Origin: an uncultured Pelagibacteraceae bacterium
GTDB taxonomy: Bacteria > Pseudomonadota > Alphaproteobacteria > Pelagibacterales > Pelagibacteraceae
Reading direction: 5' to 3'
NCBI GenBank assembly: GCA_950068185.1
Contig: CATMHL010000002.1
Coordinates: forward strand, 1 to 38,565
Length of the DNA: 38,565 bases
Shown here: positions 36,926 through 38,565 of the stretch, in pieces
Position numbering within the stretch: the first letter of the stretch is position 1
How the letters are laid out: the number at the start of each line of letters is the position of its first letter
Notes under the pieces: model-generated
What the model saw: only the letters and a program-made list of their open reading frames with translations
What the model was told of the DNA's origin: nothing
Database searches by the model: none
Translations under genes and position numbers: made by a program

Positions 36926-37001
36926 TGGCAGGAGCGGAGGGAATCGAACCCCCAACCTCCGGTTTTGGAGACCGGCGCTCTACCAATTGAGCTACACTCC
37001 C
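36926..37001 (-). tRNA. trnW: tRNA-Trp (CCA anticodon), CCA tail encoded
   Basis: Minus strand GGGAGTGTAGCTCAATTGGTAGAGCGCCGGTCTCCAAAACCGGAGGTTGGGGGTTCGATTCCCTCCGCTCCTGCCA; cloverleaf foldable, anticodon loop CTCCAAA, 76 nt. Confidence 0.96.
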
Positions 37002-37078
37002 ATTTAACCGGATGGTTCCAAATTGGTTCCCATCATGATTGAAAACAAAAAAGCTTCCACAACTGCCTATAAGCTATG

Positions 37079-37108
37079 CTTATATAAAGGATAATATAAT
37101 AATTTCAA
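37079..37108 (-). promoter_or_regulatory. Predicted promoter of tRNA-Trp-secE-nusG-rpl-rpoBC
   Basis: Minus strand -35 TTGAAA (37103-37108), 18-nt spacer, -10 TATAAG (37079-37084); the -10 lies within inverted repeat TATAAGCATAGCTTATA (37068-37084). Confidence 0.5.
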
Positions 37109-37168
37109 CTTATAATAAAGAGTGAAAACTGTAGGTTTTAGAGTCTGTTTTAAAGGTAAGTATTTATT

Positions 37169-37246
37169 TTAGGTAGGATATTTTGAACGTCTATTGAACT
37201 CTCTTTGTTTGAGTTCGGCAAGAAAATCATCAGCAAGTTTTGTCAT
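37169..37246 (-). CDS. Possible 25-aa micro-ORF, or -1 frameshift extension of the upstream poly-Lys ORF
   Basis: Minus strand ATG..TAA: MTKLADDFLAELKQREFNRRSKYPT. No evident Shine-Dalgarno; the frame is open back into the poly-Lys tract of the upstream ORF. Confidence 0.3.
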   Translation of the reverse strand: MTKLADDFLAELKQREFNRRSKYPT

Positions 37247-37260
37247 ACGAGGAGCTGAAG

Positions 37261-37398
37261 CTAGCCTCGTTTCTTTTTTTTCTTTTTCTTTTTAGTTTTC
37301 TTTTTCTTCATACTTTTCTTTTTAGCCATAGTTTTCTCCTTTAGTCTTTTGTACTCTTCCTCACTAATATCGTTAACACCGAACTCCGCTTCATCCAT
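37261..37398 (-). CDS. Bipartite acidic/poly-Lys micro-protein, copy 1 (45 aa; alternative in-frame start at 37329 gives 22 aa)
   Basis: Read by eye: MDEAEFGVNDISEEEYKRLKEKTMAKKKSMKKKKTKKKKKKKKRG. Internal ATG preceded by AAAGGAGAAAACT; homologous to the ORF at 38132-38272. Confidence 0.6.
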   Translation of the reverse strand: MDEAEFGVNDISEEEYKRLKEKTMAKKKSMKKKKTKKKKKKKKRG

Positions 37399-37408
37399 TT
37401 TTTATTTC

Positions 37409-37501
37409 TTATCCATATACTAATAATAGCCAGATACAACATACTATAAGTATCATAACTATTGAACCGCTTATACACCAACGCCAAAAAAGTTTATACA
37501 T
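37409..37501 (-). CDS. Possible 30-aa single-TM micro-protein
   Basis: Minus strand ATG..TAA: MYKLFWRWCISGSIVMILIVCCIWLLLVYG; stop lies 10 nt before the copy 1 start. Confidence 0.4.
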   Translation of the reverse strand: MYKLFWRWCISGSIVMILIVCCIWLLLVYG

Positions 37502-37534
37502 AAGTATAGAATATATAAAAATGAAAATAAATAA

Positions 37535-37756
37535 ATGAAAAATGTATCAAGTGGGAAAACTAGAGGAAGCCGTCCTCATCATCGAAGAAAAAAGAAAAAG
37601 AAAAGTTACGTAAAATTTCTAAAGCGTAAAAGAATGAAAAGAAATACGAAAGGTATATTGAAGATTTTAAAAGAAAAAAAAACGGCATCAGAGCAATCAC
37701 AGGACAAATTAGAACCTATTGCTAGTCCTATGTCAGACTGGAACTGGAAAAAATGA
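37535..37756 (+). CDS. Small Lys/Arg-rich protein of unknown function
   Basis: 73 aa, RPHHRRKKKKKSYVKFLKRKRMKRNTKG... with acidic/polar C-terminus ending DWNWKK; followed directly by a terminator-like hairpin. Confidence 0.5.
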   Translation: MKNVSSGKTRGSRPHHRRKKKKKSYVKFLKRKRMKRNTKGILKILKEKKTASEQSQDKLEPIASPMSDWNWKK

Positions 37757-37758
37757 AT

Positions 37759-37791
37759 GTGAAGCGTGCCAATAGCTGGTCACTTTTTTTT
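37759..37791 (+). terminator. Predicted intrinsic terminator of the 73-aa ORF
   Basis: GTGA-AGC / GCT-(GG bulge)-TCAC stem (37759-37783) followed by T8; begins 2 nt after the TGA stop at 37754-37756. Confidence 0.6.
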
Positions 37792-38061
37792 ATATTTTTG
37801 AATAATATTATCTATCTCTTGTTCAGATAGACGTATTGGAACAAAAGGTATTCTTTTCAAGACAGACCTTGCTTTTTTTATATTGCCATCTAATAAATAA
37901 AAAGAAATTTTCTCACATGCTTGGTTAAACATTTTTTCATCCTTACTTCTTTTTTCATATCCTGGATGTTTTTCACTTAATATTTTTTTAATTTCCTTTG
38001 TTGTATCGTTCTTGGAATCTAAGATTACAAGCCTAGAATAACGTCTTTTCTTCTTTTTCAT
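37780..38061 (-). CDS. Small Lys-rich protein of unknown function
   Basis: 93 aa MKKKKRRYSRLVILDSKNDTTKEIKKILSEKHPGYEKRSKDEKMFNQACEKISFYLLDGNIKKARSVLKRIPFVPIRLSEQEIDNIIQKYKKK; non-low-complexity core supports a real gene. Confidence 0.65.
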   Translation of the reverse strand: MKKKKRRYSRLVILDSKNDTTKEIKKILSEKHPGYEKRSKDEKMFNQACEKISFYLLDGNIKKARSVLKRIPFVPIRLSEQEIDNIIQKYKKK

Positions 38062-38131
38062 TCAACTTATAATAACATGATTTTTGGTGTGAGGTGTAGG
38101 TCGGAAAAGTTTACAGGATTCCACATTTTAA

Positions 38132-38272
38132 TTATTCTTCTCTTCTCTTTTTTCGACTTTTTTTCTTCTTGTTTTGTTTTTTCTTTTTCTTTTTTTTAGC
38201 CATTATTACCTCCTTTTTTAATTGATTATAATCATCTTCATTGCGAATAACAGGAAATTCAGATTCATCCAT
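38132..38272 (-). CDS. Bipartite acidic/poly-Lys micro-protein, copy 2 (46 aa; alternative in-frame start at 38203 gives 23 aa)
   Basis: MDESEFPVIRNEDDYNQLKKEVIMAKKKKKKKQNKKKKSRKKRREE. Internal ATG preceded by AAAAAAGGAGGTAATA. The track's 38350 start (MNLLETL...) overlaps another ORF and is less likely. Confidence 0.6.
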   Translation of the reverse strand: MDESEFPVIRNEDDYNQLKKEVIMAKKKKKKKQNKKKKSRKKRREE

Positions 38273-38285
38273 TTCAATAGAGTCT

Positions 38286-38441
38286 TTATTTTTTCCGATT
38301 TTTTGGATCTTTCCACCATTCGTATATTGTAGTGTTTCTAATAAATTCATAAATTGATCTGTGATTTTTTATTATTGTATAAATTAATAAAATGACAAGC
38401 AGCCATCCAGATAATCCAAAGAATAAATCTTGACCACCCAT
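38286..38441 (-). CDS. Possible 51-aa single-TM micro-protein
   Basis: Minus strand ATG..TAA: MGGQDLFFGLSGWLLVILLIYTIIKNHRSIYEFIRNTTIYEWWKDPKNRKK; start overlaps the upstream stop (TAATG). Confidence 0.5.
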   Translation of the reverse strand: MGGQDLFFGLSGWLLVILLIYTIIKNHRSIYEFIRNTTIYEWWKDPKNRKK

Positions 38442-38565
38442 TAATAGCTAAGCCACAAGAGGTAGATCATTCCTGCAATTAATAAATAAGTTAATATCCT
38501 TACAATCTGTTCTCGATTTTCCGTTTTGGTTGACCAACTATTGTCATTTTTGGTTGATGATTTCT
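38441..38565 (-). CDS. Small membrane protein, C-terminal part (5' end outside window)
   Basis: Minus strand open from the window edge: KSSTKNDNSWSTKTENREQIVRILTYLLIAGMIYLLWLSY*; hydrophobic C-terminal segment. Confidence 0.45.
   Translation of the reverse strand, partial: KSSTKNDNSWSTKTENREQIVRILTYLLIAGMIYLLWLSY

Follow-up and report, generated by a model that had tools for sequence, protein, structure and literature searches.

We describe a family of very short phage genes in which a single reading frame is likely to carry two translation starts. In our preferred reading, each copy is one tailed-phage reading frame with an outer start coupled to the stop codon of the preceding gene and an internal start driven by its own Shine-Dalgarno (SD) sequence. 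We consider this probable since it is the simplest account of the conserved SD-ATG, the conserved frame, the selection on the head and the outer start adjacent to a stop. Two copies are found in the window, by which we mean the whole stretch of DNA analysed (38,565 nt), which is the whole of one contig (C2) of a 965-kb assembly comprising 109 contigs. Their features are as follows.

37261..37398, minus strand: copy 1 long form, 45 aa, acidic head and poly-Lys tail; outer ATG at 37398
37336..37342, minus strand: copy 1 internal SD, AAAGGAG
37261..37329, minus strand: copy 1 short form, MAKKK..., 22 aa; internal ATG at 37329
37409..37501, minus strand: small hydrophobic ORF MYKLFWRWCISGSIVMILIVCCIWLLLVYG; its stop is 10 nt upstream of copy 1's outer ATG, which makes it a candidate partner for coupling
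38132..38272, minus strand: long form of copy 2, 46 aa; homology to M(x)DE[AS]EF supports its outer ATG at 38272
38209..38215, minus strand: copy 2 internal SD, AAGGAGG
38132..38203, minus strand: copy 2 short form, MAKKKKKKK..., 23 aa; internal ATG at 38203
38286..38441, minus strand: small hydrophobic ORF MGGQDLFFGLSGWLLVILLIY...; its stop is 13 nt upstream of copy 2's outer ATG

The internal start and its conservation

The long form of copy 1 is MDEAEFGVNDISEEEYKRLKEKTMAKKKSMKKKKTKKKKKKKKRG, which splits at the internal Met into head and tail as MDEAEFGVNDISEEEYKRLKEKT|MAKKKSMKKKKTKKKKKKKKRG; that of copy 2 is MDESEFPVIRNEDDYNQLKKEVIMAKKKKKKKQNKKKKSRKKRREE, which splits as MDESEFPVIRNEDDYNQLKKEVI|MAKKKKKKKQNKKKKSRKKRREE. 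An earlier note on this DNA had described AAAGGAG-AAAACT-ATG-GCT-AAA inside the MDEAEF frame of copy 1, with a second start at 37329 and a 22-aa product, and the sequence at 37342-37321 (minus strand) is as described, its ATG being in frame with the 45-aa ORF. The note's claim of the same arrangement in copy 2 also holds (AAGGAG-GTAATA-ATG, with the in-frame ATG at 38203); both copies have AAGGAG 6 nt ahead of an in-frame internal ATG. The frame of copy 2 stays open upstream of 38272 to another ATG at 38350. The exact 22-mer of the copy 1 short form occurs once in the assembly.

Relatives were found with degenerate DNA patterns, a four-sequence profile search having been nearly useless because its conserved windows were poly-Lys. 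Pattern scans of IMG/VR yielded 38 further copies on short marine viral contigs, giving a total of 40 with the window (32 distinct 54-mers, 13 clusters at 90%). The heads are of two types, type I MIPVIRNEDHYNQLKKEVT and type II M(x)DEAEFGVDDISEEEYN(K/R)LKEKT, bridged by hybrid heads of the form DE[AS]EFPVI[RK]NED[HD]YN, of which window copy 2 is one; copy 1 has type II homologues, e.g., L078 and L111, at 83-86% DNA identity. A head is always followed by M[A/P/T/V]KKK. Three of the pattern scans covered only the sequence upstream of the SD, without the internal ATG or the tail, and every complete phage-type match to them still has the internal ATG and a poly-Lys tail; heads therefore never occur without the internal start in the IMG/VR collection searched. 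Homologues lacking the internal SD-ATG, which would have spoken against the earlier note, were not found among the 38 viral-contig relatives.

Judged from sequence, the internal SD-ATG is beyond chance, because GGAG precedes the internal ATG in 40/40 copies (beginning at -10 in 39 and at -13 in one), compared with 5 of 138 internal in-frame ATGs with GGAG 4-9 nt upstream in the 38 host genes of the window. The mean energy of pairing with the anti-SD is -10.9 kcal/mol for the inner SD and -4.0 kcal/mol for the outer one (copy 1, -8.8 and -3.1; copy 2, -13.2 and -1.0), and predicted RNA folds leave most of the SD unpaired (0.82 vs. 0.71 for the surrounding 150 nt).

The region is rich in Lys and Glu, and the outer start has a plausible coupling arrangement, so that AAGGAG could be imagined as a by-product of Lys-Glu codons, or as a pause signal, within a single acidic-basic protein made from the outer start. 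We regard this as quite improbable. The chance rate in host genes is low, the distance from SD to ATG is 6 nt in 39/40 copies although the linker varies, and the codons forming the SD are fixed, unlike Glu and Lys codons elsewhere. Among 14 representatives, the SD codons are GAG in all 14, preceded by AAG in 13 and CAG in one, whereas the other Glu codons of the same segment are split 36 GAA : 14 GAG and the other Lys codons are mixed, mostly AAA (Fisher P 8e-7 for Glu and 1e-5 for Lys, values that are descriptive, as kinship among copies overstates their independence). The element is kept as CAGGAGG in L072 and L074 despite different residues (QEES), and as AAGGAG across a multi-codon insertion in L091-type copies.

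An SD-like sequence about 12 nt before AAAAAG could also recall dnaX, where such an element stimulates ribosomal frameshifting on an A-rich run and not internal initiation. This explanation is scarcely credible here and was rejected: in most representatives the -1 frame meets a stop codon immediately, a conserved +1 product is absent, and the internal ATG is kept, though frameshifting has no need of one.

The acidic head and the outer start

The acidic head is, by comparison of the copies, translated and under protein-level selection, because its variation is synonymous. Head differences within a type are largely of the kind GTT/GTC/GTG, AGA/CGT/CGC, GAA/GAG, and GAT/GAC. The heads were compared by anchoring on the conserved core, since alignment from the internal ATG is misleading where linker length varies. 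From the conserved Tyr to the internal Met there are four linker lengths (8, 9, 12, and 14 codons), always in frame; a fifth value of 1 was left aside, from L119, in which the Tyr adjoins the internal Met. Synonymous head variation, fixed SD codons, and a frame kept over four linkers together indicate selection on both the head and the internal start.

Synonymous variation also bears on whether the acidic segment is instead a conserved DNA or RNA element, such as a promoter, a packaging site or a recombination hot spot. In favour of such an element, the DNA of type II heads is unusually conserved relative to neighbouring genes, and the cassette is found behind different upstream genes. However, types I and II have residues in common but little DNA, differences within type I are for the most part synonymous, and the frame is open in every copy, so we consider it very unlikely that the segment is not protein-coding. 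A candidate embedded promoter seen by eye in type II (TTGACG-17-TACAAC) was dropped, as type I is without it and the -10-like codons vary. As a separate observation, diverged pairs of type II cassettes (L060-L126) have the same codon at a rate of 0.80 in the head and 0.42 in the adjacent terS, which suggests recent spread or cassette exchange, or an extra constraint at the DNA level.

The outer start codon stays at the stop of the preceding gene in all 37 testable copies, at positions from 13 nt past the end of that stop to 8 nt short of it (-13 to +8 nt), with junctions that are ATGA, ATGNNTGA or TAATG overlaps, or short gaps. At least six unrelated kinds of gene precede the cassette, encoding a DITGDAGHAT protein or the related DILSDSGWAT protein, a 163-aa protein with IKKLEK at its C-terminus, HNH-like proteins, small membrane proteins (as in the window), an MIEVVTALM protein, and an HVMHLLNDHQK protein. 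The window ORF MYKLFWRWCISGSIVMILIVCCIWLLLVYG (37409..37501), taken directly from sequence, has no confident homologue. The earlier note had found no clear SD at the outer start. That SD is indeed weak in both copies (-3.1 and -1.0 kcal/mol), but a candidate mechanism for starting there does exist, namely coupling to a stop 10 or 13 nt upstream.

The much stronger internal SD could also mean that only the internal start matters, the gene being a poly-Lys peptide with the acidic head as an incidental translated leader. In L080 and L088, the outer start and the upstream stop have been lost and the internal SD-ATG kept, the head being fused in frame to the upstream gene. The free acidic-headed form is thus not universal, because of these two fusions. 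Against an incidental leader stand the protein-level conservation of the head, whose codons change synonymously and which stays in frame with the tail over several linker lengths, and the constant placement of the outer start at the upstream stop. We consider a gene with only the internal start unlikely. The dual-start reading, with the two isoforms that the earlier note had suggested, is strongly supported by comparison: the SD-ATG is present throughout, the frame is kept, and the head appears to be under protein-level selection.

Genomic setting and probable source phage

By its gene content and its links to pelagiphages, the assembly looks SAR11-related. The cassettes lie at the end of the contig, where the last 1.56 kb contain only short ORFs, on both strands.

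36926-37001: tRNA-Trp, abutting the phage-like segment at its 5′ end
37002..38565, no strand assigned: phage-like segment, starting exactly at the 5′ end of tRNA-Trp and running to the contig end

The match to relatives of the host breaks off exactly at the 5′ end of tRNA-Trp (36926-37010 region). In 11/11 relatives read at this locus, tuf follows directly after tRNA-Trp; it was not found elsewhere in the assembly. The copy 1 cassette shares up to 86% DNA identity with viral contigs, and the window ORF at 37535-37756 (plus strand) has a C-terminal motif in common with viral ORFs. The 1.56-kb segment thus has the cassette and the C-terminal motif in common with viral contigs; a hallmark phage gene is absent there, and a terminase was not found in a search of the whole assembly. 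From these comparisons the segment appears to be phage-derived, because the match to relatives ends at tRNA-Trp and both the cassette and the C-terminal motif match viral contigs. The phage origin and the stop-coupled outer start go beyond the earlier note. The junction at tRNA-Trp may be that of a prophage or of a mis-joined contig (assembly chimera), both being admissible given that no tuf was found in the assembly and that the contig breaks off within the segment. A host origin of the cassette was rejected: it has no counterpart at the locus in the 11 relatives, where tuf is found instead, and no match in two pattern scans of genome contigs.

Several other features of the segment and its surroundings were observed. 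A perfect 15-nt repeat, TTCAACTTATAATAA, occurs at 37104-37118 and 38061-38075, 957 nt apart; it includes a -10-like TATAAT, and its copy at 38061-38075 lies directly before the minus-strand ORF 38061-37780. This Lys-rich 93-aa ORF (37780-38061, minus strand), which lies between cassette copies 1 and 2, has no convincing match in viral loci or PHROGs. The motif S-x-x-x-Q[DE]xLEPI is shared, often near the C-terminus, by phage proteins that are otherwise unrelated; its carriers are the window's Lys-rich ORF 37535-37756 (plus strand) and proteins of L080, L088, L097, L119, and L121, one of which is a SET-domain protein. In the host relative G012 (L003, 1498-1596, minus strand), an unrelated-looking MAKRRKKKKGKKKAKKRRRRRR microprotein without an acidic head, preceded by KRELIM, is found beside a CarD-like gene.

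The cassette contigs carry a terminase small subunit (phrog_51), an exonuclease (phrog_298), and 2OG-oxygenase-like proteins identified by eye. On these viral contigs, the terminase small subunit is 56% identical to that of HTVC027P, and the exonuclease is 42-48% identical to those of HTVC027P, HTVC023P and 023Pt_psg01, which are the nearest cultured or complete relatives by these two genes. The two genes are also close together in 023Pt_psg01 and HTVC027P, so that the viral contigs, not the window, have them in a placement similar to that of the HTVC023P/HTVC027P type. The HTVC023P type has been treated previously (PMC9599517). The source of the cassette is probably a relative of these pelagiphages, judging by the two genes. 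The cassette was not found in the genome parts fetched for HTVC027P, HTVC023P, Kolga, 023Pt_psg01, and AG-345-P14, and tblastn gave no cassette match in cultured phages.

A SET-domain protein is encoded on 12/38 cassette contigs (PF00856 for three tested, the rest by motif). This small protein is found in L064 (about 876-1214), L074, L097, L119 and others, and has relatives in Pelagibacter phage Kolga, P-SSM7, and P-RSM6. The poly-Lys peptides of the same phages are a candidate substrate for it. Literature on lysine-rich or SET-domain proteins in pelagiphages was searched for, and nothing was found.

Neither copy 2 nor a type II member had a Pfam profile match at E 0.01, the long ORF of copy 2 had no PHROGs profile match at E 0.01, and tblastn of the cassette against a phage collection gave no match at E up to 10. 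The cassette family thus appears to be a previously undescribed phage gene family, without match in Pfam, PHROGs or the phage collection.

Proposed mechanism and comparison with known systems

In the proposed mechanism, ribosomes terminating on the upstream gene would reinitiate at the outer ATG, a codon that either overlaps the stop of that gene or lies almost next to it; the product would be an acidic-headed protein of 40-55 aa that ends in the poly-Lys tail. Free ribosomes would instead be recruited by the strong internal AAGGAG(G) and initiate at the internal ATG 6 nt downstream, yielding a poly-Lys peptide of 20-31 aa. Comparison of the copies shows that both starts, the SD and the frame are conserved and that the head is under coding selection; we infer that both starts are in use, with a certain ratio of long to short form, that the poly-Lys part binds nucleic acid, and that the head adds a separate binding or regulatory function. 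Nucleic-acid binding is the most likely biochemical role of the tail, as inferred from its composition only.

The mean charge is -4.5 for the acidic part (-4 in both W1 and W2) and +16.6 for the Lys part (W1, +16; W2, +14). AlphaFold predicts one continuous helix from residue 13 to 44 without fold-back (mean pLDDT 80, pTM 0.39). The speculation in the earlier note that the acidic part neutralises the cationic part is not borne out, with about -4 set against +16 and a single predicted helix that does not fold back. A bolder proposal sees in the cassette a transferable unit with two starts, able to insert behind unrelated genes and to couple to their stop, its poly-Lys lysines being modified by the SET-domain protein of the same phages in the manner of histone tails; we hold this to be a long shot.

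Annotation usually overlooks or masks genes of such short length and low complexity. Comparison by itself argues strongly that, at 40 places, a single frame of ~45 codons gives two overlapping products, in a tidy arrangement of one start coupled to a stop and one driven by an SD. The family could serve as a ready test case for start-site prediction and for microprotein proteomics in abundant marine phages, with the head N-terminus MDEAEFGVDDISEEEYNK and its variants as targets.

In-frame internal starts are already established in phages, as in T7 4A/4B (the primase-helicase), lambda S, and lambda C/Nu3. What appears to be new is the family itself, with its unusual layout and strong comparative support, which would extend the short list of such phage genes by one family. 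The HTVC023P/HTVC027P type resembles the source phage in its related terminase small subunit and exonuclease, and differs in that the dual-start cassette is absent from the genome parts fetched. T7 4A/4B and lambda C/Nu3 resemble the proposed arrangement of the cassette in that a single frame serves two proteins with a common C-terminal part, the second being started internally from an SD of its own; their hallmark, an internal in-frame start with its own SD, is present in 40/40 copies. Unlike in those genes, the two parts of the cassette are only ~20 residues each, the split sets an acidic head apart from a poly-Lys tail, and the upstream gene at whose stop the outer start lies varies. The lambda S holin (S107/S105) is likewise a very small phage gene with two in-frame starts, whose longer and shorter products differ in charge. 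The cassette's products, in contrast, are acidic/poly-Lys with no hydrophobic stretch, Pfam match or transmembrane segment of the kind found in lambda S holins, and its starts are ~19-30 codons apart instead of two, the outer one being coupled, in our reading, to an upstream stop.
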